From positions 1 through 12,700 of the forward strand of contig JASHUH010000392.1 in NCBI GenBank assembly GCA_030040115.1: 12,700 bases of DNA, given 5' to 3'. The translations under genes were made by a program, and so were the position numbers. The notes under the pieces are model-generated. The model saw nothing but the letters and a program-made list of their open reading frames with translations. It was not told the origin of the DNA and made no database searches. Source of the stretch: Acidobacteriaceae bacterium (lineage in GTDB: Bacteria; Acidobacteriota; Terriglobia; Terriglobales; Acidobacteriaceae). Positions 1 through 12,700 of this stretch are shown here, one piece after another (within the stretch, counting starts at the first letter, position 1; each line of letters starts with the position of its first letter).

Positions 1-2773
1 GGCCGCGCACCATCACATCGTGGCTGGGATCGAAGTAATGGAACCGGTTGCGGCCGGCGAGCTTGGCGTCGTACATCGCCTGCCCGGCCTGCCGCAGCAG
101 CAGGTCGGGATCGGCCTCGTCTTGCAATGGATAGAGCGCCACCCCCGCGCTGGCTGAGACGCGGATGGCCCAGCCGTCGAGCCACACCTCCTCGGCGGCG
201 GCTTCAAGCAGGCGCTGGAGCACCGGATCGGCCGAATTGCGACCGGGCAAGTCCAGCAACACCGCCACGAACTCGTCGCCGCCCAAACGGGCGAGGGTGT
301 CTCCTTCGCGCAGCGCCGATTGCATCCGCGCCGCAATCGCGGTGAGCAATCGGTCGCCGCTCTCGTGACCGTAACGGTCGTTTACTTCCTTGAATCCGTC
401 AAGATCGAAAAAAGCCACCGCGAGGAACTCCCGATGCCGTCGCGCCTGGGCCATGGCCTGGCTTAGCCGGTCGGCAAGCAGAACGCGATTCGGCAAACCG
501 GTGAGCGCATCGTGATGCGCGAGATGTTCGAGTTGCCGCTCGTGCTCCTTCCGTTCGGTGATGTCGGAAAACAGGGCCACATACTGCGCCGTGTTGCCGG
601 CCGCGTCCCGGATGGCGTTGATGCTGAGCATCTCGGCATACACCACGCCTTCTTTGGATCGGTTCCAGATTTCGCCGGACCAATGGCCGTCGCGCAGCAA
701 GGAACCCCACATGTTCTCGTAGAACTCACGGGGTTGCAGGCCGGACTTGAGCAGCCGCGGGTTCTGCCCGATGGCTTCGGCGCGGCTGTATCCGGTAATG
801 CGGCTAAAGGCGTCGTTGACGTCGAGTATGGTCCCGTTGGGATCGGTGAGGACGATGCCTTCGCTGGCGTGCGTAAACACGCTGGCCGCCAGGCGGAGCC
901 GATCTTCGGTTTGCTTCTGCACGGTGGCGTCTTCGGCAAAAAGGATGATGCCCCCCACCGAGCCGTCGCCGGCGCGCCAGGGCACAACCTCCCAGCGAAT
1001 CCACTGCACCGCGCCGTCCCCGCGCTCAAAGCGCTCTTCGTCGGCTTTGAGCGTCTCGCCGGCCAGGCCCCGCCGATGCGCCTCTCGCCAGCGCTCGGGC
1101 ACGTCGGGAACGACGTCGTAGTGGGATTTTCCAAGGATTTCCTGCCCTAGCAGGAAGTTCTCTTCCACCCAGCGGCGGCTCACCGCCAGGTAACGCATTT
1201 CGCGATCGAACATGGCCAGAGCCGCAGGCGCGCGCTCGATGAAAAGTTGCAGAAGCTCCTTGCTTTCGCGCAACTGAGTTTCGGCCCGCTTGCGCGCGGT
1301 GACGTCCTCGTAGAAAAGCACGATGCCGCCCACCGAACCATCGTCGGCCCTCCAGGGGGTAATCTGCCACCGGATCCATTCAATGGCGCCGTTGGCGCGA
1401 TCGTACCGGTCCTCTTCGACTCGCTGCGTCTCGCCGGCCAAGCCACGCCTGTGCGTCTCTTTCCAACGTTCCGGAACCTCCGGGTTGACCTCGTAATGGG
1501 AGCGCCCCAACACCTCCCGCGCATCCACCTGGTGATCTTCCGCCCAGCGGCGGCTCACCGCCAGGTAGCGCATCTCGCGGTCGAACATGGCCAGCGCCAC
1601 GGGCGCGTGCTCCACAAACAGCTCGAGCAGCTTTTTGCTGTCCCGGAGCGCAATTTCGGTCAGTTTGCTCTCGGTGATGTCTTGAACGGTGCCCCGCAAG
1701 GCAGCCGGTTTACCTTCGGCGTCAAGTTCCAGCCGGCCCCGCGTGTGCATCCAACGCACGGCCCCGTCCGTCTGGCGTATGAAGCGGTACTCGCGGTCGA
1801 AGGACGTGCGTTCACCCCTAAAGCACCCGTTCAAGCGCTCCGCCATGGCGGCGCGATCGTCGGGGTGGACCAGCGGCCAAAGTCCCTCAAGATCCCGGTT
1901 GTATCCGGCGCTTGTGCCCAGTATCGCGTCCAACTCCCCTGAGACCGTCCATTTTCTCGCCGGGATATCCAGAACAAAGCTGCCTACGTGGGCGATTTTC
2001 GGCGCCTCGTTGAGCGACTCCTCGCTGGCGCGCAAGCGCATGTCCGCAGTAATGAATCCGGTGATATCGGGCGCAATGCAGAGGATGCCTAGGATCGCGC
2101 CGTCCGAGCGGTTGACGGGATATTGCCGTAGGTCGATCCAACGCATGGACGCGTCCTGGCCCTGCACGCGGAGGATTTGGTTGGTGCGGCGTTCTTCTTT
2201 GAGCGCCTGCTTTTCGAGCCGGTACGAGACGTCGGCGATGGTTTCGGAATAGAGATCGTAATCGGTCTTGCCGAGCAGGTCCTCCGGCTGGCGCGCGGAT
2301 TCGGTCAAGCTCGCCAAAGCGCGGCTGGCGGCCAGAATGACGTGGTTGCGGTTGATGACATACACATAATCCCGGGTATGTTCGATAAGCGACTTGAAAT
2401 TGGCCGCGAGGGACCGGTCTCCTGGCTCGCGAACCTGCCTTGCGTCGCGCAGGATGAGATGAAGCAGCGGCGCACCATCGTTCTTCCGGGGCCGCACCCG
2501 GGCGTAATGGCCTTTGAAGCATTGAATGCGGCCGTCGGCGTGGCGAAGCCGGATGTTGAAAGTTCCCGACCGGCTTTCGCTGTGGGGTGAGAAAAGAGTC
2601 TGAGCAATGTCGGCGTCGGCAGGGTGAACGAGGTCATTGAGGCGCACGCGCGAGTGGAGAAACGCCTCGCGGCTGAAGCCCAGCAACGCGGAGGCGCCTT
2701 CGCTCACAGATCGCACCGGCAATCCACTTGTGAGCGCCAGCATAAAATCCGCCAAAACGAGGCTCCCTGCCAT
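1..2773 (-). CDS. Multi-PAS sensor diguanylate cyclase (GGDEF), C-terminus cut by window edge, probably continuing into an EAL domain
   Basis: A single frame stays open from 2773 to the left edge (924 visible codons). It encodes about six PAS/PAC modules (roughly residues 1-112, 125-240, 247-370, 378-500, 503-625, 628-745), then a GGDEF domain (about 752-914) starting at HDALTGLPNR. The active-site motif RLGGDEF (residues 829-835) is intact, and an RxxD inhibitory I-site (REGD, 822-825) lies five residues before it. It should therefore make c-di-GMP from two GTP and be product-inhibited. The last visible residues (FDPSHDVMVRG) resemble the GGDEF-EAL linker of bifunctional proteins, so an EAL phosphodiesterase domain beyond the edge is likely but unseen. 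I see no membrane segment, so sensing is probably cytoplasmic. The fourth and fifth PAS modules are a recent tandem copy. ATG 2773 keeps the first PAS strand whole; ATG 2743, behind GGCGGA, is a real alternative. The frame is closed upstream by a stop at 2966-2968. Confidence 0.93.
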   Translation of the reverse strand, partial: MAGSLVLADFMLALTSGLPVRSVSEGASALLGFSREAFLHSRVRLNDLVHPADADIAQTLFSPHSESRSGTFNIRLRHADGRIQCFKGHYARVRPRKNDGAPLLHLILRDARQVREPGDRSLAANFKSLIEHTRDYVYVINRNHVILAASRALASLTESARQPEDLLGKTDYDLYSETIADVSYRLEKQALKEERRTNQILRVQGQDASMRWIDLRQYPVNRSDGAILGILCIAPDITGFITADMRLRASEESLNEAPKIAHVGSFVLDIPARKWTVSGELDAILGTSAGYNRDLEGLWPLVHPDDRAAMAERLNGCFRGERTSFDREYRFIRQTDGAVRWMHTRGRLELDAEGKPAALRGTVQDITESKLTEIALRDSKKLLELFVEHAPVALAMFDREMRYLAVSRRWAEDHQVDAREVLGRSHYEVNPEVPERWKETHRRGLAGETQRVEEDRYDRANGAIEWIRWQITPWRADDGSVGGIVLFYEDVTARKRAETQLRESKELLQLFIERAPAALAMFDREMRYLAVSRRWVEENFLLGQEILGKSHYDVVPDVPERWREAHRRGLAGETLKADEERFERGDGAVQWIRWEVVPWRAGDGSVGGIILFAEDATVQKQTEDRLRLAASVFTHASEGIVLTDPNGTILDVNDAFSRITGYSRAEAIGQNPRLLKSGLQPREFYENMWGSLLRDGHWSGEIWNRSKEGVVYAEMLSINAIRDAAGNTAQYVALFSDITERKEHERQLEHLAHHDALTGLPNRVLLADRLSQAMAQARRHREFLAVAFFDLDGFKEVNDRYGHESGDRLLTAIAARMQSALREGDTLARLGGDEFVAVLLDLPGRNSADPVLQRLLEAAAEEVWLDGWAIRVSASAGVALYPLQDEADPDLLLRQAGQAMYDAKLAGRNRFHYFDPSHDVMVRG

Positions 2774-3059
2774 GCTCTGCTTTCTAACCTGCACGTATAA
2801 GCGACCATGCTGCGCAAATTGTCTGGTAACTGTTCCTAATGTAACACGCCTGGAAGTTACAAATGCGTAGCGAATATGAAGAAAAGGTGTTAGATCTTTT
2901 CCCCAAAGGAAAAACGGGTGCTCGCCTCGGGAAAAGAGCGGTCTGTTTCGAGTTCGGTGGGCCGTTCATCGCGGATTGCCGCGGGGGATTGCCTCCTTCT
3001 CGCGGTTCGGTCATTTCAACGCGGTTCCATTCCGCCGGGAGAACCAAAGCAGGCGCCGG

Positions 3060-3068
3060 TTATCCACG
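3060..3068 (+). promoter_or_regulatory. DnaA-box-like 9-mer TTATCCACG
   Basis: It matches the classical DnaA box TTATCCACA at 8 of 9 positions. It lies 130 bp upstream of the MerR/TPR start, in the same orientation as the copy at 3101-3109. Binding is inferred; a single 8/9 match is expected by chance fairly often, and the pair is what makes it notable. Confidence 0.35.
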
Positions 3069-3100
3069 AGTTTTTTGGCGAGGACTGAATTCTCACCCGC

Positions 3101-3109
3101 TTATCCACT
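3101..3109 (+). promoter_or_regulatory. DnaA-box-like 9-mer TTATCCACT
   Basis: Second 8/9 match to TTATCCACA, exactly 41 bp (about four helical turns) downstream of the first and on the same strand. It sits 12 bp before a CATAAT hexamer (3121-3126) that could be the -10 of the MerR/TPR gene, so a bound DnaA-like protein would overlap the promoter. Confidence 0.35.
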
Positions 3110-3197
3110 TAAGCCCTTGGCATAATTGCTGATAAGAGCCGCTGCGCGGAGGCGGTTCCACCAGCTTTTTTGAAGGGCAAGGCAGGAGCACCGTAGA

Positions 3198-4151
3198 GTG
3201 GGCAGCTATAGCCGCCAGGATGTCTTGCGGATCCTCGAGATCGGTTCCCGCCAGTTGCAGGGGTGGGAACGCGCCGGATTGATTCCCCACCAGCAGAGCT
3301 ACACGATTCGGGATCTGGGCCAGTTGCGCACCCTGCGCGCGCTGCGCGAAGAAGCCGTCCCGGCGGCTTCCATCCGGCAGTCGATCCTCGCCATGAAAGC
3401 CGTTTCCGGATTGGCGAATCCGCTGCTCGAGGCCTGCGTGGTGCGCACCGGCGCGCGGCTGACCTTTCGGCACCGCGGCGCGATGGTCGATCCCATCCGC
3501 CGCCAACTGCTGTTCGATTTCGAACGCGCCGGCCGCATTGACCGTCCGATGGCGCCCGGGAAGATCCTGGTGAGGCCGGCGCTGCTGCGCCCGACTCCGG
3601 TCGTGGGCCGGCGCAGCGTTCAGGAGCTTTTTCTGGCCGCCGTCGAAGCCGAGGAGTGCGGTAAAAAACACTATGCTCTCAAGCTCTACGAGGAAATCCT
3701 GGCGCTCGAGCCGGCCCACGCCGCGGCCTGCATCAACCTGGGCACCCTGTATTTTCAGCTGCGAGACTTTGTCCGGTCCGAAGGGTTCTACCGCCGCGCT
3801 GTCGAGAGCGATCCGGCTTATGCGCTCGGGTATTTTGATCTCGGCAATGTGCTCGACGAGTTGGCGCGGCTGGAGGAGTCGATTGCGGCGTACCGGCAGG
3901 CGGTTGGGCTGGCGCCCGGCTACGCTGACGCCCACTATAACCTGGCCTTGGCCTATGAGCGCACGGGGCAGTATCGGCCGGCGCTCCGCCATTGGCAGGC
4001 TTACGTCAAGATCGATAAAAGCGGTCCGTGGGCCGACCACGCGCGCGGTCAAATCCGCAAGCTGCTCAGCCGCGAACCCCTCGCCATCGCTTGGCGCGCG
4101 GAGCATTTTGTGCCGCAGGGCAGAAAGAGGGCGAAGCTGGCGCTGGTGTAG
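3198..4151 (+). CDS. MerR-type helix-turn-helix protein fused to TPR repeats
   Basis: The 317-residue protein starts at GTG 3198, with AGGAG 9 nt upstream. Residues 4-65 form a MerR-like winged HTH (YSRQDVLRILEIGSRQLQGW, then an AGLIP turn and a YTIRDL helix typical of the family's second half). A linker of unclear fold follows (about 66-138), then four TPR units (about 139-172, 173-206, 207-240, 241-274) with characteristic patterns such as ACINLGTLYF and AHYNLALAYERTGQY. The C-terminus is basic. It should bind DNA through the HTH and a protein partner through the TPR array. Classical MerR proteins instead carry a dimerising coiled coil and a metal- or drug-binding tail, neither seen here. 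It stands alone, and its stop is 1 bp from the end of the facing HigA remnant. The target is unknown. This architecture is, to my knowledge, common in Acidobacteria. Confidence 0.88.
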   Translation: MGSYSRQDVLRILEIGSRQLQGWERAGLIPHQQSYTIRDLGQLRTLRALREEAVPAASIRQSILAMKAVSGLANPLLEACVVRTGARLTFRHRGAMVDPIRRQLLFDFERAGRIDRPMAPGKILVRPALLRPTPVVGRRSVQELFLAAVEAEECGKKHYALKLYEEILALEPAHAAACINLGTLYFQLRDFVRSEGFYRRAVESDPAYALGYFDLGNVLDELARLEESIAAYRQAVGLAPGYADAHYNLALAYERTGQYRPALRHWQAYVKIDKSGPWADHARGQIRKLLSREPLAIAWRAEHFVPQGRKRAKLALV

Positions 4152-4152
4152 C

Positions 4153-4438
4153 TCAGGCCGCGCGGGGAAACGCGGCGATCTTGGGCCGTTTGCGGCGCGA
4201 TGCGCGCCGGAGGTCGTGCTGCTGCTGCAAATCGAGCCAGAGCTCGGGACGGCCGCCGAAGGCGTCGGAAAAACGCAGCGCCATCGCGGCCGTAACGGAT
4301 GCGCGGCCGTTGAGAATGCCCAGGCTATCGAACCCACCCTTGCTCTCGGCGGCATGCTGGCAAACGGGGAACAGATCGCAAAACGCCTTGCCGAAGCGCC
4401 TCGCCAGCACAAATTGCAGGAGCAAGCGTTCTCGTAAA
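4153..4438 (-). pseudogene. Degraded HigA-type antitoxin (XRE family), frameshifted
   Basis: The C-terminal half in one minus-strand frame reads ILNGRASVTAAMALRFSDAF, followed by ELWLDLQQQHDLRRA. This is close to the HigA signature (I-x-NG-x-R-x-(I/V)-TADTALRL...EFWLNLQ..YDL). The N-terminal half lies in a different frame: PAICAGEALRQGVL matches the HigA opening PPIHPGEILREEFL at about half its positions, but that frame stops at 4325-4327. The two halves are about 29 codons apart, against about 32 in an intact gene, so a net loss of some 8 bases explains the shift. The C-terminal frame alone begins only at a TTG (4425) and lacks the first DNA-binding helices. No HigB/RelE-like toxin is present; only 100 bp separate it from the next gene. 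It is likely a relic of a lost toxin-antitoxin pair. It would be intact only if the sequence contains an assembly indel. Confidence 0.65.
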
Positions 4439-4537
4439 CAAGTCAGCGCTTATGCGGCCGAGCCCGAGGACCGGCGAAAACACCCGGCGATAAGTTGCGA
4501 ACCTGCCCAACCGCTAGCGCGTTACACTTTTCTTGCC

Positions 4538-5281
4538 ATGACCGCAAAGCAAACGGCTGCTTCACCTGCTGTTTTCGCCTACTTCCGCCCCGAAGCGCTC
4601 ACCTTCCTGCGCAACTTGGCGCGCCACAATGACCGCGCATGGTTTCAGCCGCGCAAAGCGGAATTCGAAGCGCTGCTCAAAGAGCCGATGCTGTCGGTCA
4701 TTCGCAAGATCACCGACGCGATGATGGACTTTGCGCCCAACCACGTGCGTCCGGCGGAAAAGTGCCTCTTCCGCATCTATCGCGACACGCGCTTCAGCGC
4801 CAACAAGCTGCCCTACAAAACCCATGTGGCGGCATGGTGGACGCACACGGGGTTGGAGAAGACTTCCGGCGCGGGGTATTACTTTCACGTAAGTCCGAAA
4901 GAAGTGATTATCGCCGCGGGGGCTTACATGCCGGAGAAGGAGCAATTAGCGCAGATTCGCCACTGGCTGCTCGATCACCATGCCGAGTTTCGGAAGCTTC
5001 TCCAGCGGGCCGCCGTCCGCAGGACCTTTGAGGAATTTGAAGGCAACGCGCTCACGCGGCCGCCCAAGGGCTTCCCCTGCGAGCATCCGGGGCTGGACCT
5101 GATCCGCTGCCGGCAGTGGGGATTGGCGGCCACGCTGCCCGCGGCCACCGCGCTCCAACCGGATTTCGCCGCCACCATCATCCGCTCCTTCAGGATAGCG
5201 GTGCCGGTGGTGGATGCATTAAACACACCCATTGCCGCGGCGCAGGCTCCGCGCAAAAAAGTGCTGTTCGGGCTCCCATAG
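4538..5281 (+). CDS. DUF2461 family protein (TIGR02453-like)
   Basis: This 247-residue protein is about the usual family length. Family landmarks appear in order: an N-terminal LTFLRNLARHNDRAWFQPRK block (about 21-40), the conserved core LFRIYRDTRFSANKLPYKTH (about 77-96), then GYYFHVSP with AAGAYMPEKEQL (about 113-136), and TRPPKGFPCEHPGLDLIR (about 173-190). The biochemical function of the family is unknown. I see no signal peptide or membrane segment, so it should be cytoplasmic. ATG 4538 was chosen because the homologous region starts soon after it; no clear Shine-Dalgarno precedes it (TTTTCTTGCC). It appears monocistronic, between the HigA relic and the long HU leader. Confidence 0.88.
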   Translation: MTAKQTAASPAVFAYFRPEALTFLRNLARHNDRAWFQPRKAEFEALLKEPMLSVIRKITDAMMDFAPNHVRPAEKCLFRIYRDTRFSANKLPYKTHVAAWWTHTGLEKTSGAGYYFHVSPKEVIIAAGAYMPEKEQLAQIRHWLLDHHAEFRKLLQRAAVRRTFEEFEGNALTRPPKGFPCEHPGLDLIRCRQWGLAATLPAATALQPDFAATIIRSFRIAVPVVDALNTPIAAAQAPRKKVLFGLP

Positions 5282-5456
5282 AGCGGGTCCGAGCCTTTGT
5301 ACGCCGCGCGGGCTTCGAGGCGCGCCGAAACGCGGAGGGGCGCTCAACGCCGCGAAAATGCGGGCCTGGAGGCCACTCAGAAGGCGAAAACCCAGAAAAT
5401 ATAGGCAAATTCGGTACAGAACCCCAAGAAAATTGTGGAAAAACCGGCTTTTTGTA

Positions 5457-5486
5457 TTGACTTTCCCGGCTCAAAGCCGCATTGTA
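5457..5486 (+). promoter_or_regulatory. Putative sigma-70-type promoter of the HU gene
   Basis: A -35 TTGACT (5457-5462) is followed after 18 bp by ATTGTA (5481-5486) as a possible -10; CATTGT at 17 bp is an equivalent reading. An A-rich tract (5386-5456) lies just upstream, where an UP element would act. A small inverted repeat, CGGCT-CAA-AGCCG (5467-5479), fills the spacer and could be an operator. The -10 is weak, so this is a candidate only. Confidence 0.4.
5471..5482 (+). repeat. 12-bp direct repeat TCAAAGCCGCAT, copy 1
   Basis: This is identical to 5504-5515. The start-to-start distance is 33 bp, about three helical turns. It overlaps the putative -10 of the HU promoter. The 7-mer GCCGCAT also occurs inverted at 5562-5568. 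It could be a binding site for a regulator of HU, possibly HU itself. Confidence 0.5.
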
Positions 5487-5503
5487 GGCATCGGCAGGGT
5501 TCT

Positions 5504-5515
5504 TCAAAGCCGCAT
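5504..5515 (+). repeat. 12-bp direct repeat TCAAAGCCGCAT, copy 2
   Basis: Second exact copy, about 20-30 bp downstream of the putative promoter in the HU leader. See copy 1 at 5471-5482. Confidence 0.5.
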
Positions 5516-5636
5516 GAACAGAGGGGTTTTCGCGCAGCCTGGGCTCCATTGCACTCCCTCCATGCGGCTCGCATTCACGGCGGAAGCCCCTCAACACCCG
5601 AGCCGCACCGGCTCGACCAAGAAGGAGAACAGCACT

Positions 5637-5933
5637 ATGGCAGCAGGATTGACCAAGACCGCCCTGACACGGCAAATGGCCGAGAAGCTCGAAATCACCA
5701 ACAAGCAATCCGCGGCGTTTCTGGATCTGTTGGCGGAGACGGCGATCAAGGAAACCAAAAAGAACGGGGTGTTCGTGATTCCCGGCATCGGCCGCCTGGT
5801 CAAGGCGGAGCGTAAGGCCCGCATGGGACGCAATCCGCAAACCGGCCAGGCCATCAAGATCAAGGCCAAGACGGTGGTGAAGTTCCGTGTGGCCAAGTCG
5901 GCCAAGGATACGATCGCGCCTTCCAAAAAGTAG
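5637..5933 (+). CDS. HU-like nucleoid-associated DNA-binding protein
   Basis: The 98-residue basic protein fits the HU/IHF family (about 90-100 residues). The helical N-terminal half (TKTALTRQMAEKLEITNKQS, 6-25) precedes the beta-arm region: VFVIPGIGRLVKAERKARMG (45-64), then RNPQTGQAIKIKAKTVVKFR (65-84), with the family's G-R-N-P-x-T-G element and intercalating-arm proline. The last helix contains AKSAKD and the protein ends in a Lys-rich SKK. It should bind and bend DNA as a dimer, shaping the nucleoid. ATG 5637 is fixed by AAGGAG (5622-5627) 9 nt upstream and by the usual family N-terminus; the frame runs open upstream but has no family match there. Transcription probably ends at the strong hairpin at 5951-5983, so it is monocistronic. 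Confidence 0.95.
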   Translation: MAAGLTKTALTRQMAEKLEITNKQSAAFLDLLAETAIKETKKNGVFVIPGIGRLVKAERKARMGRNPQTGQAIKIKAKTVVKFRVAKSAKDTIAPSKK

Positions 5934-5950
5934 CATTCCGGACTGGCGAG

Positions 5951-5983
5951 AAAGGGGAGAAGCCTGGCGCTTCTCCCCTTTTT
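5951..5983 (+). terminator. Rho-independent terminator after the HU gene
   Basis: A perfect 13-bp stem (AAAGGGGAGAAGC, 5951-5963, paired with 5969-5981) encloses a 5-nt loop CTGGC and runs into a T tract. It begins 17 bp after the HU stop. Read on the minus strand, the stem is followed by only three T, so it may also act weakly for the opposing methyltransferase gene. Confidence 0.9.
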
Positions 5984-6155
5984 CGCATATCGCGCAAGCC
6001 TGGCGGCGATTTTTTCTGCACTCTTGCCGTGACGTGGCTCGCGGGTTGAGCGGTGACGTCGTTTCATCGCTTTCGATCGGCTGTGCGGCTTCGGCCTCAA
6101 CTATGCCGACGGCTTCCGATGGATGCACCGGGGACGGTTGGGTGATCCCGCCATG

Positions 6156-6899
6156 TTACGGAGCCGAAGCGGAGCCCACGGAACTCCGCGGCGCCAGCGC
6201 CCGCGCCACCAGCGATAAGCCGAAGCTGATCAGAATCGCCTTCAACATCAGTTCGCTGTCGTATTGCCAGGAAAGAAACGCCAAGATGACGAACACGCCG
6301 ATGGGATTGATTTCCGAAAGCAGGGCGATGAGCCAGCGCGGCTGGTTGCCGGCAGGCGCAAGAGACGTGCGCAAACGCGGGAAAAGACGCGGCACGGCGC
6401 GACGATATTGCCGGTAAGGCTCGCCCAGGCGCGGCTCTAAAAAAGCCTCTTCGCCCAAAATCAGGCGCAGGTAAAACAGCGTGACCAGGATCATGGTGAA
6501 GAGCGCGCCGGTGGGCGGCATGAGCAGGGAAATGGCGGCTATCATGCACCACCCGCCGAGATAGAGCGGATTGCGCACATACCGGTAAGGGCCGTCAGCC
6601 ATCAGCGCGCCGGCCTGCATTTGGCCTTGGTGGACAGTCGCGTATCCCAGATAGGCCGTTCCCCAAACGCGCAGCACCGCACCCAGGCCGGCCATCAGCG
6701 CGCCCAACACGATCACCGCGGGCGCAGAAAAGGTAAATCGCAGCACTCCGGCGCGGCTCAGTTCGAGCGCCAGCCATTCGAGCAGCGAAACGCGGCGGCC
6801 CAGGTCAAAGGCCTGGATCCAGGGGGCCCAGAATCCCAAAACCACAATGACCACCTGTATCAGCGTCCGCAGACGAAACTCGATCGCGCTGGCCCGCAT
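6156..6899 (-). CDS. Integral membrane methyltransferase of the isoprenylcysteine carboxyl methyltransferase (ICMT/PEMT-like) family
   Basis: The 247-residue protein has about five hydrophobic segments (roughly residues 12-31, 55-80, 112-147 as a pair, 199-212, 219-234). The family's SAM-binding core is present: GPYRYVRNPLYLGG (103-116), then LGEEAFLEPRLGEPYRQY (148-165) with paired glutamates. It probably transfers a methyl group from SAM to a lipid or lipophilic substrate in the inner membrane; the substrate cannot be read from the sequence, since bacteria with such genes generally lack prenylated CaaX proteins. The two hydrophobic segments after the core are an addition to the minimal fold. 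Start ATG 6899 was chosen for GGGAG at a 6-nt spacing; ATG 6905 sits directly on that GGGAG and a TTG at 6941 has no binding site. It diverges from dps across a 197-bp spacer. Confidence 0.85.
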   Translation of the reverse strand: MRASAIEFRLRTLIQVVIVVLGFWAPWIQAFDLGRRVSLLEWLALELSRAGVLRFTFSAPAVIVLGALMAGLGAVLRVWGTAYLGYATVHQGQMQAGALMADGPYRYVRNPLYLGGWCMIAAISLLMPPTGALFTMILVTLFYLRLILGEEAFLEPRLGEPYRQYRRAVPRLFPRLRTSLAPAGNQPRWLIALLSEINPIGVFVILAFLSWQYDSELMLKAILISFGLSLVARALAPRSSVGSASAP

Positions 6900-6922
6900 G
6901 GACATCTCCCGCTCATCGTGCT

Positions 6923-6937
6923 GTACTTCTAGAGTAC
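6923..6937. promoter_or_regulatory. Candidate operator dyad GTACT-N5-AGTAC
   Basis: A perfect 5-bp inverted repeat around TCTAG lies 24 bp upstream of the methyltransferase start and 160 bp upstream of dps. Its size and place suit a dimeric repressor of the methyltransferase. No regulator is identified and no promoter hexamers are clear beside it. Confidence 0.3.
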
Positions 6938-7096
6938 GCAATCGGGCAGCCGCGGGTCCGCGCGATCGCGGAGGTCTTCGCCGTGCTGTTTGGCGCCGGC
7001 GCCGAAGCGGAACAACTTCAGGCGTTAGGCCAGCATCGAATTCTCGGACGCTGGCGCGCGCGGCGCCGGCCCGGCTGCCGGAGGAGGGAGAGGGAA

Positions 7097-7606
7097 ATGT
7101 CCACGCATACGAGTCAGGAATCGAAAGCGGCCAAGACCAACAATCCGGACGGATTCGCTCCGGAGCAGGTCAAGGATGTCACCAATGTTCTGAACGCCAC
7201 CCTGGCCGACGTTTTTGCGCTTTACATCAAGACCAAGAACTTCCATTGGCACATGAGCGGGCCTCATTTCCGCGACTATCATCTCCTGCTCGATGAGCAA
7301 GCCACCCAAATCTTCGCCATTAGCGACGACATCGCCGAGAGGGTGCGCAAAATTGGCGGGACCACGCTCCGCTCGATCGGCCACATTGCGCGTCTGCAGC
7401 GCATCGCCGATAACGATCAGGAGTTTGTGCCGGCGCGCGACATGCTGCTCGAACTGCACGCCGACAACATGACGCTGGTGGAAAGCTTGCGCGCCGCGCA
7501 CGAGGTCGCCGGGAAGGTGAGCGACTACGCCACCACCAGCCTCATCGAAACCTGGATCGACGAGGCCGAGCGCCGCGCCTGGTTCCTGTTCGAGGCCACC
7601 CGGTAA
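7097..7606 (+). CDS. dps: Dps-family ferritin-like protein (DNA protection / iron storage)
   Basis: The 169-residue protein is a typical Dps length. The intersubunit ferroxidase ligands are all present with correct spacing: His50 in NFHWHMSG, His62, Asp66 in LLLDE, and Asp77 and Glu81 in SDDIAERV, followed by the conserved KIGG turn. It should assemble into a 12-subunit shell that oxidises Fe2+ with H2O2, storing iron and limiting hydroxyl radicals. The N-terminal tail (about 20 residues) has three Lys, so DNA binding is possible but not assured. ATG 7097 follows a purine run GGAGGAGGGAGAGGGAA, a very strong ribosome binding site; the frame continues upstream to 6983 but that part has no family match. 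The last 57 bp before the facing hydrolase gene show no convincing terminator. Control by a peroxide sensor is plausible, but I see no recognisable site. Confidence 0.93.
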   Translation: MSTHTSQESKAAKTNNPDGFAPEQVKDVTNVLNATLADVFALYIKTKNFHWHMSGPHFRDYHLLLDEQATQIFAISDDIAERVRKIGGTTLRSIGHIARLQRIADNDQEFVPARDMLLELHADNMTLVESLRAAHEVAGKVSDYATTSLIETWIDEAERRAWFLFEATR

Positions 7607-7663
7607 AACGTCCTCCACTTCGCGCCCGCGCACGTGTGGCCGCGGCCAGAGGCGTAGTGTCTC

Positions 7664-8536
7664 TCAACGAAAATCTTGGGCAGCGGCCCACGGCACGGAC
7701 TCGGGCCGTGGGCGGTTGCCCAACAGCACCACGCGGATGGAACCGCCGATGCCGCTGGGGGCGGGAACGACTTGCGCGGCGCGACCGGCGGCTTGAATGA
7801 TGTTGACGGCGACAGACACGGCCGGATCCATGGGCGTGTCGCGTACCGGAATGCGGGTGCGCAAAAAGCCGACTGTCGCCGACGACAGGAATTTGCGGCC
7901 GAATCCAGCGTAGACATAGCGATCGACGTACGAGGTTTCGCCATAGAGCCAGACCCCGCGCGCATCGTGCGGCGAAATCGCGGTCTCGGTGAAGCGGGCG
8001 GCTCGCACCCGGCGCGTGCGCGCGTCGATGCGCACCACGAAATTGCGCAGCAGGGCGGCTTGCGACGCGGGATCGTAGCTGGCCACGACCACTGAAAAGA
8101 TATCCCGTCCCGTGAACCTGCGCAGCGTCTCAGGATAGGCTCGGCGGAAGCGCTCAACCTGGCGCACGCAGGCCGCGCTTAGGCCGTCGAAGGCCAACTG
8201 CGCGGGATCGTCTGCGCTGCGATCGAGATAGCTGCGCACCAGCGCGTCGATATTGAGCCGCCGGGGCGCGGTCTCAAGGTAACGGCACAGATTTGCCGCG
8301 CCGGCGGGCGGCGGAGCAACAAAAATGGCGTCGCCGGTGACGATGGCCACGGTGCGCAGGGGTCGCGCCGGCTCAATGATCTTGAACGCGCCGTCGCACT
8401 CCGCGCCGAGAAACGTGATGCGGCTATCGGCGGCCACAAGCAGACCGTCCTTCGAGGGAACAAGCGCCACCAAGGTGGCGTGAGCCGCAGCGCACAGGAG
8501 CAGGGCCGCGATGAAGGCTGCGAAAAGGCGCGCCAT
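7664..8536 (-). CDS. Secreted protein with proteasome-like Ntn-hydrolase signature
   Basis: The 290-residue precursor has a clear signal peptide: MARLF, a hydrophobic core to about residue 17, and an AHA cleavage site (18-20). Cys15 lacks a small residue before it, so it is not a lipoprotein. Cutting after Ala20 leaves Thr21 at the N-terminus. Counted from it, TLVALVPSKDGLLVAADSR aligns without gaps to the start of proteasome beta subunits: Gly11, Val14, the block AADSR with Asp17, then Thr21 and Lys32. The tail SGIGGSIRVVLL (261-272) resembles the closing strand SGG-x-I-x-V, keeping the Ser169 equivalent but with Pro at the Asp166 position. I infer a periplasmic or exported Thr-type amidohydrolase or peptidase. 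Start 8536 is chosen from the signal peptide; its ribosome binding site is weak, and the frame runs open further upstream. It diverges from marR across 168 bp. A non-catalytic role remains possible. Confidence 0.72.
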   Translation of the reverse strand: MARLFAAFIAALLLCAAAHATLVALVPSKDGLLVAADSRITFLGAECDGAFKIIEPARPLRTVAIVTGDAIFVAPPPAGAANLCRYLETAPRRLNIDALVRSYLDRSADDPAQLAFDGLSAACVRQVERFRRAYPETLRRFTGRDIFSVVVASYDPASQAALLRNFVVRIDARTRRVRAARFTETAISPHDARGVWLYGETSYVDRYVYAGFGRKFLSSATVGFLRTRIPVRDTPMDPAVSVAVNIIQAAGRAAQVVPAPSGIGGSIRVVLLGNRPRPESVPWAAAQDFR

Positions 8537-8618
8537 GGATGCAAGTAGTATGGCATGGGGCCCGTTCCAGCCCGGATAAAAACGCCGCCACTGCACAGGC
8601 ATTCCCGGGTCGGGGAAT

Positions 8619-8655
8619 TTATATCGTTTCACGATTAGCTCGCATAGAGATATAA
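8619..8655. promoter_or_regulatory. Candidate MarR operator with nested inverted repeats
   Basis: The perfect palindrome ATCGT-TTC-ACGAT (8623-8635) is of the size bound by MarR-family dimers. It is nested in a wider inverted repeat, TTATATC (8619-8625) and GATATAA (8649-8655). The palindrome covers the -35 of the rightward promoter, and the outer right arm covers its -10, so binding would block marR transcription. A TATAAA (8618-8623 read on the minus strand) could be the -10 for the divergent hydrolase gene, which would make the site shared. Binding by the adjacent MarR is inferred from position. Confidence 0.6.
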
Positions 8656-8656
8656 T
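8628..8656 (+). promoter_or_regulatory. Promoter of the marR-clc-clc operon
   Basis: A perfect -10 TATAAT (8651-8656) stands 17 bp after a -35-like TTCACG (8628-8633, four of six consensus). Transcription would start near 8663, about 40 nt before the MarR start codon. The -35 lies inside the ATCGT-N3-ACGAT palindrome. Confidence 0.7.
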
Positions 8657-8704
8657 GGAAATGGATGCAAATCGAGGCGCCGGCCAGGCGGGCGGTAAAA
8701 AGCG

Positions 8705-9172
8705 ATGCACCGCAACAAATCCAGAGGGATGTTTGAGGAGCTGGCGCATTTCCGCCATAAGCTGCGGAAGTTTCTGCGCTTCAGCGAAGACGCCGCGCGC
8801 GCCTGCGGAATTACTCCGCAGCAGCAACAGCTCATGCTGGGCATCGCCGGTTTTACCGGTACCGGCAGGGCCAACATCTCGGAAATTGCCGAATTTTTGC
8901 AAGAGAAACACAATTCCGTGGTGGGGCTGGTGGATCGCGCGGTGCAGGGCGGGCTGGTGCGGAGAGCCGAGGACACAGAAGACCGGCGCGTGGTCGTGGT
9001 CACCCTGACGCAGCGCGGTGAAGACATTCTCAAGAGGCTGTCGCTGCTGCATCACGAGGAAGTGAAGCGATTGCGCCGCGACTTTTGGAGTGCGGAAGCT
9101 GAGCAACACGCGGAGCGGACAACCAGCCGGGGACGGGAGCCAAGTCGAAGTGTTGAACACTCCGCCAATTGA
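8705..9172 (+). CDS. MarR-family transcriptional regulator
   Basis: The 155-residue protein shows the MarR winged helix-turn-helix: ANISEIAEFLQEKHNSVVGL (56-75) with recognition helix NSVVGLVDRAVQGGLV, then the beta-wing ED-TEDRRVVVVTLTQRGEDI with the family's D-x-R signature at 93-95. Flanking helices (about 8-33 and 104-127) form the dimer interface. The final 25 residues are polar, Arg- and Ser-rich and probably disordered. It likely represses its own promoter through the palindrome at 8623-8635. Its coding end overlaps the start of the first ClC gene by 23 bp, tying regulator and channel translationally. The ligand is unknown; given its targets, a weak acid or anion would fit, but that is inference. 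ATG 8705 has only a weak GGCGG upstream; ATG 8729 is a less likely alternative. Confidence 0.9.
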   Translation: MHRNKSRGMFEELAHFRHKLRKFLRFSEDAARACGITPQQQQLMLGIAGFTGTGRANISEIAEFLQEKHNSVVGLVDRAVQGGLVRRAEDTEDRRVVVVTLTQRGEDILKRLSLLHHEEVKRLRRDFWSAEAEQHAERTTSRGREPSRSVEHSAN

Positions 9173-10991
9173 TCCGAAAACAAGGCGATTCGAGAAGAAG
9201 GTAAAAGCGCACCGAGGCAAGGGGCTTCTCCACCATCCGCTGCTGCGCAAGTATGCGCCGCTCATCCACGAAGATCTGGCGGCCGTCTATGCGCGCGATC
9301 TGCGCAAGTGGCTGGTGATCGCTCCCATCATCGGGGTCATCACCGGCCTGCTCACCACCGCCATTGCCATCGTCATCCTGAAGCGCATGTGGCCGCCGAT
9401 TCTCAGCTACTATCTGCGCCATCACTGGGCCATGCTTCCCGGCCTGCTGCTGGGATGCATCGCGACCGGCCTGATCATGCAATACCTCACGCCCGACCCC
9501 GATGAGCACTCGACGGAAGAGATCATCCGCAGCTATCACGAGCACCAGGGAGACGTGAACATGCGGCCGTTCCTCGCCAAACTGGCGGCGGCCGCCGCAA
9601 CCGTGGGCTTGGGCGGCAGTGCGGCGCTCGAAGGGCCGAGCATCTACGGCGGAGGCGCGATCGGGTCGTGGTTGTGGGAGCAGCTACGGCGTGCGCAACG
9701 ATTCCGCCTGGATGCGCGCGACCGGCGCATCATGCTGATCTGCGGCGCGGCGGCGGGCATGTCGGCGGTGTTCCGCGCGCCCCTCACGGGCATTGTGTTC
9801 TCGCTGGAAATGCCATACAAGGACGATCTGGCGCACGAAGCGCTGCTGCCGTCGCTGATCGCGTCGGTGGTGTCGTTCATGACGCTTAGTTCGTTTCTCG
9901 GCAGCGCGCCGCTTTTCGACTTTGCCGCCGAGCCCTCCTTCACGCGCCACGATCTGCTCTGGTGCGCCCTGCTGGGGTTGGCCATCGGCTTGGTGGGGAT
10001 GGGGTTCGTCACCACGTTTCGCCGCGTGCGCGCTTTTTGCGTGAACTGGAGCGCGCCGCACTGGGTCAAACTCGCGGTGGGCGGCGCGCTAACCGCCCTC
10101 TGCGGAATGGCGTTCGTCCATCTTTATAACGGCCCGCTGATCCCTCTGGGGCCGAACTACGAGGCCGTGGGACTGATTCTCCAGCATTCCTACAGTTCGG
10201 CGGAGCTGGCCACGTTTGGCCTGTTCAAGATGGCGGCAACCATCTTCACGCTGGGCGCCGGCGGAGTGAGCGCGATGTTCGTGCCGTTGTTTCTGACCGG
10301 CGGTTCGCTGGGCGTGGCGTTTGCGCAATCGGTGGCGCACAGCCCGGCGCTGGGGCTGTATGCAGCGGTGGGCATGGCCTCGTTTATTGCGGCGGGATAT
10401 AAAACGCCGCTGGCGGCCGTGGTCTTCGTGGCCGAAGCCACCGGCGGACATGCCTTCATCATTCCCAGCCTGGTTGGGGCGGCGGTTGCCTATGCGGTTT
10501 CAGGCGACGCCTCGGCGTCGGGCGATCAACGCCTGCATGAAGCCGTGAAAGTGCACGCTCTGCAGGGCGTCACCGTAGGTGAGGTCATGCAAAGCGACAT
10601 TCTTGCCGCGCCGGCCATGCTCACCCTGCGGGAATTTGCCGCTACCCTCTCGCCGCACACCCGTCACGAGGTCTTTCCCGTGTTCGACGGCGGGACCCTG
10701 ATCGGCGCTTGCAGCGTCTGGGCCTTGAGCCATGTGCCGCCGCAGGAATGGCACACCCGAAAGATACGCGATATTACGCAGCCCCTCGTGGCCCGCATCT
10801 CTCCGCACACCCCATTGCCCGAGGCGCTGCGCCTCATCTTGCGAGAGGATAGCGAACCGACGCTGCTGGTGGTGGAAGAGGATCACAAGGTCGTGGGTAT
10901 TTTGACCAAGGGCGACATTCTGCAAACGCTGATGCTCCCTCACGTTGAGAGCGCCGTTGAAGAGGAGATGGCGGTGCCCAGCCCGGCCTGA
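9150..10991 (+). CDS. ClC-family chloride channel/transporter with C-terminal CBS pair (divergent type)
   Basis: The 613-residue protein has a ClC membrane domain (about 52-455), then two cytoplasmic CBS domains (about 475-530 and 540-598, the latter ending VVGILTKGDILQTLM). The gating glutamate is kept in GSAALEGP (Glu161). The third filter motif is present in variant form, SAMFVP (374-379, usually GxFxP). The first motif (GSGIP or GHGVP) is replaced by EHSTEE (119-124). In GIVFSLEMPY (214-223) the position of the E. coli ClC internal proton glutamate (Glu203) is Met221, as in channel-type members. Passive anion conduction is thus plausible, but not certain. GTG 9150 was chosen for GGGAG about 10 nt upstream; it overlaps marR by 23 bp. 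GTG 9090 is an alternative without a usable binding site. It is the second gene of the marR operon. Confidence 0.9.
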   Translation: MLNTPPIDPKTRRFEKKVKAHRGKGLLHHPLLRKYAPLIHEDLAAVYARDLRKWLVIAPIIGVITGLLTTAIAIVILKRMWPPILSYYLRHHWAMLPGLLLGCIATGLIMQYLTPDPDEHSTEEIIRSYHEHQGDVNMRPFLAKLAAAAATVGLGGSAALEGPSIYGGGAIGSWLWEQLRRAQRFRLDARDRRIMLICGAAAGMSAVFRAPLTGIVFSLEMPYKDDLAHEALLPSLIASVVSFMTLSSFLGSAPLFDFAAEPSFTRHDLLWCALLGLAIGLVGMGFVTTFRRVRAFCVNWSAPHWVKLAVGGALTALCGMAFVHLYNGPLIPLGPNYEAVGLILQHSYSSAELATFGLFKMAATIFTLGAGGVSAMFVPLFLTGGSLGVAFAQSVAHSPALGLYAAVGMASFIAAGYKTPLAAVVFVAEATGGHAFIIPSLVGAAVAYAVSGDASASGDQRLHEAVKVHALQGVTVGEVMQSDILAAPAMLTLREFAATLSPHTRHEVFPVFDGGTLIGACSVWALSHVPPQEWHTRKIRDITQPLVARISPHTPLPEALRLILREDSEPTLLVVEEDHKVVGILTKGDILQTLMLPHVESAVEEEMAVPSPA

Positions 10992-11024
10992 GGCGACGAA
11001 AACTTAATACACGGGAGGTTCCCT

Positions 11025-12700
11025 ATGCCCGGCTTTTCCGCTTCTGAAGCCGACGAACAACTGGAATTGACGACGGAACACAATGGACAGTTCGGTGTTG
11101 CGTTGGAGCCCCAGGTGGTCAAGATCTGCATGTACGCCCTGCTGGTGGGCTTGATCGGCGGCCTGGTGGCTCAGGGATTGCTGGAACTGATCTACTTCTT
11201 CACCAATCTCTTCTTTTATGGTCGCGTTTCATTCGCTATCAGTTACCCGGCGCATAATCATCTCCACCTCTGGGTCCTGCTCATCCCGCCCATCGGCGGC
11301 CTCGTGGTTGGCCTGCTCATCTACTTTTTTGAGCCCACATTGAAGGGCCACGGCATTCCCGAAGCCATGGAAGCGGTGCTTTTCGGCCATAGCCGCATGC
11401 GCCTGCGCGTGGCGATTCTCAAGCCGCTGGCGACAGCTTTGGCTATCGGCACCGGCGGCCCGTTCGGCGCGGAGGGGCCGATCATCCAAACCGGCGGCGC
11501 GTGCGGTTCGCTGCTGGGCCAGGCGCTGGGGTTGAGCCCCTACTATCGGCGCGTGCTGCTCGCCTCAGGCGCCGCTGCCGGCATGGCGGCCACATTTACT
11601 GCCCCTCTGGCGGGGATTCTGGTGGCCGTGGAGTTACTGCTTTTCGAGATGCGCGCCCGGTCGTTTATCCCGGTTGCGCTGGCCTCTGCGGTAGCCACAG
11701 GAGTCCGTGTTTATTTTGTCGGCTGGGCGCCGCTGTTTCCTACTCCGGAATTCAAAATCACAGGGACCAACGAACTATGGCTCTTTGCGGTGCTCGGCGT
11801 TCTGATGGGAGTGGTGGGCATCGTCATGATCCGAGTGCTCTCCTGGCTCGAGGACTTCTTCGACGATTTGCCCATCAAATACGCCGCCATCTGGTCCCCC
11901 GCCATCGGAGCGCTGATTCTGGGCGCCATCGGCTACTTCTGCCCGCAGGTCTTCGGCACCAGCTACGACACCATCCGCGACATGCTGAACGACCGGCTTA
12001 CCGTGGGCAGCCTGCTCGGAATCGGCTTCGCCAAGTTCTGGGCCTTGGTGATCTCCTTGGGCTCAGGCACCACGGGCGGAGTCTTTGCTCCCTCGCTGGT
12101 CGTCGGCGGTGGTCTGGGCGCCGCCTTCGCCTTCGGATGCAGGCATATCTTTCCGCACCTGGTCAGCGATCCGGCCTTCTACTCTCTGGTGGCGATGGCA
12201 GGCGTGTTCGGGTGCATTGCCCGCGCGCCTTTTACCAGCATCGTGTTCCTGCTGGAGCTAAGCCATAATCCGAATTCGCTTTTGCCGCTGATCGTTTGCG
12301 TCATGATCGCCGACGGGGTGGTGCGGCTGTTTAGCCGCGACTCGATTATGACCGTGAAACTGGTGAAGCGCGGCCTGATCGTGTTGCAGGACTATTGGGT
12401 GCCGGTACTCATGCGGTCGCGCATTGACCAAGTGATGCGCAATGAATTCCTGGTTCTCGGCGCCGACGAAGAACTGCGCGCGGTCGTTCAGAAACTGAGT
12501 CCGACCCATGTCGATTTCATCCCCGTTGTCGATAGCGAGGGGAGTTTGATCGGCATTGTGGAGGCGCACGATCTGTTGCGCATCGAGCCGCCCGATCACC
12601 ATTTCACCATGAAGGAGTTGGCGCATCAGGACTACGTGCTGGCGTTTCCTGGCGAGACGGTGGACCGGGTGCAACGCAAAATGATGCTCAAAAACGCCGA
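11025..12700 (+). CDS. Second ClC-family chloride channel/transporter with CBS domains, 3' end cut by window edge
   Basis: 558 residues are visible. All three ClC filter motifs are recognisable: GHGIP (108-112), GAEGP (148-152) with gating Glu150, and GVFAP (352-356). In GILVAVELL the position of the E. coli proton glutamate is Leu204, and the central tyrosine position (SIYT in relatives) is Met442 in DSIMTVKL; both changes point away from a classical 2Cl-/H+ exchanger. After the membrane domain (about 33-440) comes a first CBS domain (about 466-520) and the start of a second (about 527 on), which continues off the right edge. It starts 33 bp after the first ClC gene with GGGAGG 6 nt before ATG, so it is co-transcribed. 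The two ClC proteins differ greatly in length and motifs and are not a recent duplication. Confidence 0.93.
   Translation, partial: MPGFSASEADEQLELTTEHNGQFGVALEPQVVKICMYALLVGLIGGLVAQGLLELIYFFTNLFFYGRVSFAISYPAHNHLHLWVLLIPPIGGLVVGLLIYFFEPTLKGHGIPEAMEAVLFGHSRMRLRVAILKPLATALAIGTGGPFGAEGPIIQTGGACGSLLGQALGLSPYYRRVLLASGAAAGMAATFTAPLAGILVAVELLLFEMRARSFIPVALASAVATGVRVYFVGWAPLFPTPEFKITGTNELWLFAVLGVLMGVVGIVMIRVLSWLEDFFDDLPIKYAAIWSPAIGALILGAIGYFCPQVFGTSYDTIRDMLNDRLTVGSLLGIGFAKFWALVISLGSGTTGGVFAPSLVVGGGLGAAFAFGCRHIFPHLVSDPAFYSLVAMAGVFGCIARAPFTSIVFLLELSHNPNSLLPLIVCVMIADGVVRLFSRDSIMTVKLVKRGLIVLQDYWVPVLMRSRIDQVMRNEFLVLGADEELRAVVQKLSPTHVDFIPVVDSEGSLIGIVEAHDLLRIEPPDHHFTMKELAHQDYVLAFPGETVDRVQRKMMLKNA

Follow-up and report, generated by a model that had tools for sequence, protein, structure and literature searches.

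Homologues of the proteasome are thought of as cytoplasmic, and the proteasome itself is active only on assembly. In exported cholylglycine hydrolases of Gram-negative bacteria, removal of the signal peptide is thought to expose the nucleophile in some members; these enzymes belong to a different family of N-terminal nucleophile (Ntn) hydrolases and use Cys, unlike the protein described here. That protein is encoded in a 12,700-nucleotide stretch (the window) of DNA from a soil-type bacterium of the Acidobacteriaceae (assembly GCA_030040115.1, contig JASHUH010000392.1, positions 1 to 12,700). We read it as an exported proteasome-like Ntn hydrolase with a Thr nucleophile, Thr21, made N-terminal by signal peptidase, and we give this reading a probability of roughly 0.78.

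The beta subunits of the 20S proteasome (Pfam PF00227, MEROPS T1) use a Thr1-Lys33-Asp17 triad; Ser129, Asp166 and Ser169 form a second network near the amine of Thr1, and the archaeal enzyme fails to undergo autolysis as a D166A mutant, according to passages of PMC4792962. Anbu, which has no propeptide and carries Thr at its mature N-terminus, is taken to expose this residue by removal of the start Met (a passage of PMC5666114) and has a long C-terminal helix (a passage of PMC8665760); the literature passages compared report no signal peptide for it. The 22 further homologues described by Fuchs, Alva and Lupas 2021 (PMI, WPH, PHD and others) resemble the window family in combining a conserved triad with divergent surroundings. 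Propeptides are given there only for beta and HslV, and the main text makes no mention of signal peptides, secretion or export, periplasm or Acidobacteria. Among the papers listed by our literature search, whose coverage leaves out most subscription journals, none deals with an exported proteasome homologue. The protein termed 'proteasome-like' in a Chlamydia paper is reportedly an unrelated protease. Because the search yielded no exported proteasome homologue, we call the window family new by its predicted location and maturation, and proteasome-like by its predicted fold and triad.

The leader and the predicted N-terminal threonine

A preliminary description, made from the DNA alone, had located the gene correctly, and we add that it lies on the minus strand (Table 1). 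It had also pointed to a signal peptide ending in AHA directly before Thr21, to Gly11, Asp17, Arg19, Thr21 and Lys32 when residues are numbered from that Thr, and to a C-terminal SGIGGSIRVVLL (residues 261-272), all of which are present. The predicted protein starts with the signal peptide MARLFAAFIAALLLCAAAHA, followed by TLVALVPSKDGLLVAADSRIT.

A search of ~5.8 billion proteins gave at least 78 relatives besides the query, and a profile search gave at least 32 more; these relatives are 44-82% identical to the query, and none of those listed carries a precomputed Pfam domain. Alignment A1 contains the query and the 78 relatives (79 sequences), and its union with the second alignment, A6, minus the repeated query, forms the set of 111 used for conservation. 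Relatives may be missed, because protein searches scored the 8000 candidates sharing most words and genome searches 5 to 8 candidates per genome. Thr21, Asp37 and Lys52, which had been proposed as the triad, are kept among these homologues, as is the likely Gly47 equivalent (Table 1). Five of the 111 sequences lack the Thr column and were dropped from the Thr-site counts; the other 106 all carry Thr or Ser at the predicted cut, where the nucleophile would become the mature N-terminus. The yeast Thr1Ser mutant is described in a passage of PMC4792962 as active but less efficient, and by analogy Ser in place of Thr21 should keep a usable nucleophile. The N-terminal part is absent from P0078 and P0079. 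The database proteins P0101, P0103 and P0105 have their annotated start at a Met two positions past Thr, and their lack of signal peptide and nucleophile probably arises through gene calling (GTG-codon start). Nine loci were tried for nonsynonymous and synonymous divergence (dN/dS) and five yielded a pair; the two closest pairs have a dN far lower than their dS (0.108/0.32 and 0.120/0.46), which indicates purifying selection on the gene. The other three pairs have dN of 0.38-0.47 and dS of 1.19-1.25.

By a rule-based check the leader has the n-, h- and c-regions and the -3/-1 site of Sec export. The -3/-1 rule is obeyed at the Thr bond in every A1 sequence that reaches Thr (77/77), in line with the cleavage site proposed in the preliminary description, whereas at bonds shifted by 1-6 residues it is obeyed in 0 to 63 of 76-77. 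In A6 the -3 and -1 columns hold allowed residues only (29/29). All 73 A1 members with enough leader have a hydrophobic core, preceded by Arg or Lys in 68. This exact coincidence of a cleavage-type site with the catalytic Thr, seen in the sequence and in its conservation, is real and beyond chance. A lipoprotein reading was rejected: Cys15 lies outside any lipobox, and Cys occurs there in only 14 of 79 sequences.

Alternatively, the protein might release Thr21 by cleaving itself in the manner of 20S beta, with the leader acting as a targeting signal only and being cut elsewhere or later. The residue at -1 is informative here. Of the 106 sequences of both alignments, 81 have Ala there, 24 have Gly and one has Ser; the Gly expected for self-cleavage is found in 8/77 in A1 and 16/29 in A6, and also precedes Thr or Ser in 10 of the 13 leader-bearing sister proteins described below, whereas Ala occupies the position in 68/77 and 13/29, respectively. 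Moreover, the hydrophobic region ends only a few residues before Thr, just ahead of AxA, so that a cut further upstream could hardly leave a propeptide. In A1 the Thr bond fits the -3/-1 rule every time, and the Asp166 equivalent, needed for archaeal autolysis in a passage of PMC4792962, appears to be Pro. Where 20S beta subunits proper have a propeptide with Gly(-1) removed by autocatalysis, the -1 residue in this family is the end of the signal peptide. We therefore consider self-cleavage unlikely.

Table 1. Features of the gene and its predicted product, with conservation among the aligned sequences
Feature	Position in window	Strand	Conservation and remarks
Whole gene, 290 codons plus stop	7664..8536	minus	Close homologues share the same start Met
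Predicted signal peptide, residues 1-20, ending AHA	8477..8536	minus	-3/-1 rule 77/77; hydropathy of best 10-residue window 2.0 or more, 73/73
Thr21 (Thr1 of 20S beta), predicted mature N-terminus and nucleophile	8474..8476	minus	T 104, S 2, missing 5 (n=111); fold alignment
Predicted mature Ntn-hydrolase (proteasome beta-like) domain, residues 21-290	7667..8476	minus	
Asp37 (Asp17 of 20S beta)	8426..8428	minus	109/109, 2 missing
Arg39 (Arg19 of 20S beta)	8420..8422	minus	109/109, 2 missing
Cys47	8396..8398	minus	Invariant, 109/109, 2 missing
Lys52 (Lys33 of 20S beta)	8381..8383	minus	109/109, 2 missing
Gly68, likely equivalent of oxyanion-hole Gly47	8333..8335	minus	110/110, 1 missing; equivalence from spacing after Lys52
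Cys84	8285..8287	minus	Invariant, 110/110, 1 missing
Cys123	8168..8170	minus	Invariant, 110/110, 1 missing
Gly199-Glu200, probable Gly128-Ser129 equivalents	7937..7942	minus	G 110/110, E 108/110, 1 missing; equivalence inferred
SGIGG motif, residues 261-265, before last core strand	7742..7756	minus	S 74/79, G 75/79, I, G and G 78/79 each

Predicted fold and relation to the proteasome family

The predicted structure has the alpha-beta-beta-alpha fold of the proteasome beta type, as had been anticipated, and the order of its helices and strands reads as the beta-subunit plan. In the structure comparison the first aligned pair is residue 21 on chain residue 1 in 15 of 50 listed rows, and Anbu (PDB 5nyw, 5loy) is among the best Foldseek matches. 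With 20S beta the window protein has Thr1, Asp17, Arg19 and Lys33 in common, and probably the oxyanion Gly as well. It differs in having a signal peptide in place of a self-cleaved propeptide, three invariant Cys, a mature length of 270 residues (~195-205 in the matched mature 20S chains) and no convincing Pfam match in its family. The Cys residues would fit an oxidising compartment, one of them possibly being unpaired.

The second network around the Thr amine also differs from that of 20S beta. In the model a strand (196-198) is followed by a helix (201-209), and Glu200, nearly invariant, probably stands at the place of Ser129. The preliminary description had taken the Asp166 equivalent to be lost at Pro258. 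The loss is likely, but the position is not the best one: in the GG-x-I-[DR]-V register, set against the C-terminal sequence of a beta subunit, Pro260 more likely stands at the place of Asp166 and Ile263 at that of Ser169. Both candidate positions are mostly Pro. The apparent changes at Asp166 and Ser129, in this inferred register, would suit a non-catalytic binding or scaffold protein similar to a proteasome alpha subunit, which either stays inside the cell or keeps its leader as a membrane anchor, so that Thr21 is never freed. However, the triad and the Thr/Ser at the cut site are conserved, and an uncleaved leader would need no AxA site at a fixed place. We regard this possibility as very improbable.

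At the level of sequence, single-sequence family searches gave nothing significant, nor did profile A1 against PDB sequences, in which three proteasome beta chains appeared at E 0.49, 1.0 and 2.3, behind glyoxalase II and ribosomal S27 proteins. Relatedness to known proteasome-like members was found only via intermediates, namely L008 and the sets A3 and A4. The L008 protein was found by the A1 search of 396 phylum genomes (E 3.1e-5), and its Pfam Proteasome score of 22.1 is just under the cut-off of 22.4; L038, in set A4, passes the PF00227 cut-off. With hhalign, A1 gave 92.0% against L008 over 241 columns, 94.7% against A3 and 96.4% against A4, compared with 0.2-0.3% for reversed controls and at most 1.98% for 55 unrelated open reading frames (ORFs; 60 were drawn, of which 5 were true members). 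The reverse searches recovered the window protein with A3 (E 2.3e-5) and A4 (E 2.6e-4). HslV and other Ntn families are outside the VIA rows listed, which is not evidence of difference. When the protein database was searched with L008, nothing but L008 itself (P0112) came back among the candidates scored.

Several observations weigh against the interpretation as an exported proteasome-like enzyme. Whole-chain Foldseek TM-scores are low (0.35-0.47, query-normalised). Among the 79 members scanned, PF00227 was matched in one (E 0.18), and the best Pfam match among the rows shown (E 0.0028) was to an unrelated family. A profile comparison with HslV gave 1%, no direct link. Both A3 and A4 were assembled in searches that had A1 as their starting point, the A4 link involves mainly ~41 N-terminal columns, and single sister proteins vary widely (L008 92%, L039 82%, L029 81%, L030 47%, L040 37%, L037 5%). 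The AlphaFold2 model of the sister protein P0112 was poor (pLDDT 57.7) and was left out of the fold search. Export rests on the rule-based check and a reading of the sequence, and Gly, the residue of self-cleaving subunits, precedes Thr in 24/106. Finally, a passage of PMC4792962 reports that D166A or D166N impairs 20S subunits, while Asp166 appears lost here.

We nevertheless favor an exported enzyme with a signal peptidase-made Thr. Its family and fold are shown by the sequence, its conservation and the predicted structure; for export, cut, activity, oligomeric state and substrate we infer the following. The product, a proteasome-like Ntn hydrolase of T1 type, would leave the cytoplasm by the Sec route, signal peptidase I would cut after Ala20 to leave a free N-terminal Thr21, and the chain would fold outside the cytoplasm. 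Thr21, with Lys52 and Asp37, would then attack an amide bond, Gly68 serving as the oxyanion hole.

Leader-bearing sister proteins

The preliminary interpretation as an exported proteasome-like hydrolase matured by signal peptidase is supported, with export and cleavage predicted, but its singularity is not, since proteasome-like proteins of the same phylum also have signal-peptide-like leaders. These sister proteins were found with the L008 protein (at least 3/162 genomes), with A1, with the L034 protein (4/200) and with A4 (at least 13/396). The A4 search gave 16 matches, two of which were the window protein and L030 again; L045, L055 and L056 were left out of the reading. A hydrophobic leader precedes the proteasome-type start in 13 of the proteins read (L029, L030, L034, L035, L037-L042, L046, L049 and L051), and in L008 if its upstream start is right. 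The best hydropathy window is 2.0-3.3 for ten of them including L008 (HslV 0.41), the others being judged by eye. Thr directly follows AxA in L034, L042 and L046, and the other ten and L008 have Gly before Thr (before Ser in L037), the arrangement of beta subunits that cleave themselves. On this single-sequence reading, export seems to go with two routes to a free nucleophile. A leader was looked for in L043 and L054 and none was found; that of L048 is ambiguous. L036 was rejected as a relative, as it has an in-frame TAG and the motif is absent from its ORFs.

The frames in L044, L047 and L050 are longer (434, 392 and 450 residues); their match to the sister set is confined to the C-terminal region, where they have VGGP[IV]DVAV in common with it. 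Both L044 and L050 begin with Met-Thr-Ala-Glu, carry AADS, share VGGPIDVAVIS and have no leader. By sequence, L044, L047 and L050 are possibly cytosolic proteasome homologues outside Pfam recognition (L044 and L050 were scanned), and our guess is that L044 and L050 may be of the PMI kind. In L039 (frame 886-1842, minus strand) the leader reads LSAC, which is lipobox-like, followed by a short segment and GHG-Thr; self-cleavage would free its catalytic domain from a lipid anchor.

A tentative extension, to which we give slightly less than an even chance, is that the Acidobacteriota hold a whole exported proteasome-like branch. Some members (the window family and perhaps L034, L042 and L046) would be cut by signal peptidase at AxA-Thr, and others (L029, L030, L035, L037-L041, L049 and L051) would combine a signal peptide with Gly-Thr or Gly-Ser self-cleavage. 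In the window family the activity switch would have passed from self-cleavage to export, Glu and Pro would stand in place of the Ser129/Asp166 pair that serves autolysis, and the enzyme would work outside the cytoplasm with neither ATP nor a ring-gating partner. The autolysis network may be dispensable in a family that relies on another enzyme to free its Thr; we keep this as a hypothesis because the sister proteins show no clean correlation. We also considered, and dropped, the possibility that the Asp166 equivalent is lost wherever self-cleavage is lost: by eye, Asp is present in the Gly-Thr proteins L039 and L051 and absent in L030 and L041.

Distribution, neighbourhood and possible function

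The gene occurs in 11 of 80 genomes of the genus (one partial), or 7/42 among those well assembled. A search of 300 genomes of the taxonomic family gave at least six matches, comprising three full proteins, all from the genus, the distant exported relatives L034 and L035, and one spurious match. At least 3/396 genomes of the phylum sample match, one being L008. Three named relatives are metagenome-assembled Acidobacteria, and the plasmid search gave no match. The source genome (84.7% complete) keeps a separate HslVU on contig C11, and hslU, the neighbour of cytoplasmic HslV, is not among the window ORFs.

The surroundings in the window, which the Pfam scan of neighbours covered, are ordinary: a PAS/GGDEF-type protein off the left end (named by reading), a MerR-TPR protein, DUF2461, an HU-like protein, a PEMT/ICMT-type methyltransferase, a ferritin-like protein, a MarR regulator and a CLC channel with CBS domains. 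The MerR-TPR protein (3201-4151, plus strand) has TPR repeats fused to a MerR-type DNA-binding domain. When ten family loci, several of them short, and L027 were compared for shared ORFs, no neighbour beyond the gene and antisense ORFs was common to more than four. A glycerol-kinase-like gene adjoins the family gene in 4 of 10 loci (L018-L021), with a ribosomal S1-like gene nearby in three of these four, and a RarA-like AAA+ ATPase adjoins it in L023 only (3759-5123, plus strand); these names are by reading. Neighbours are kept only among close relatives, and no conserved partner gene emerged from this comparison.

Because no such partner was found, the most likely function is that of an ATP-independent peptidase, amidase or transpeptidase for small or unfolded substrates. 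The same observation would suit a processed exported enzyme that is a transpeptidase or ligase rather than a hydrolase, like connectase, which a passage of PMC8665760 describes as a monomeric proteasome homologue acting as a protein ligase. However, the model lacks the two-helix insertion that connectase carries between strands 3 and 4, having no helix of at least 4 residues between residues 13 and 82, and we judge a connectase-like role improbable.

If the exported, signal peptidase-matured enzyme is real, the making of its nucleophile by signal peptidase would be another way of keeping such an enzyme inactive within the cell, and the proteasome fold would be working where there is no ATP. 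The family would then offer a single-gene system in which to ask whether the proteasome fold acts without a ring, and what role the Ser129/Asp166 network plays.
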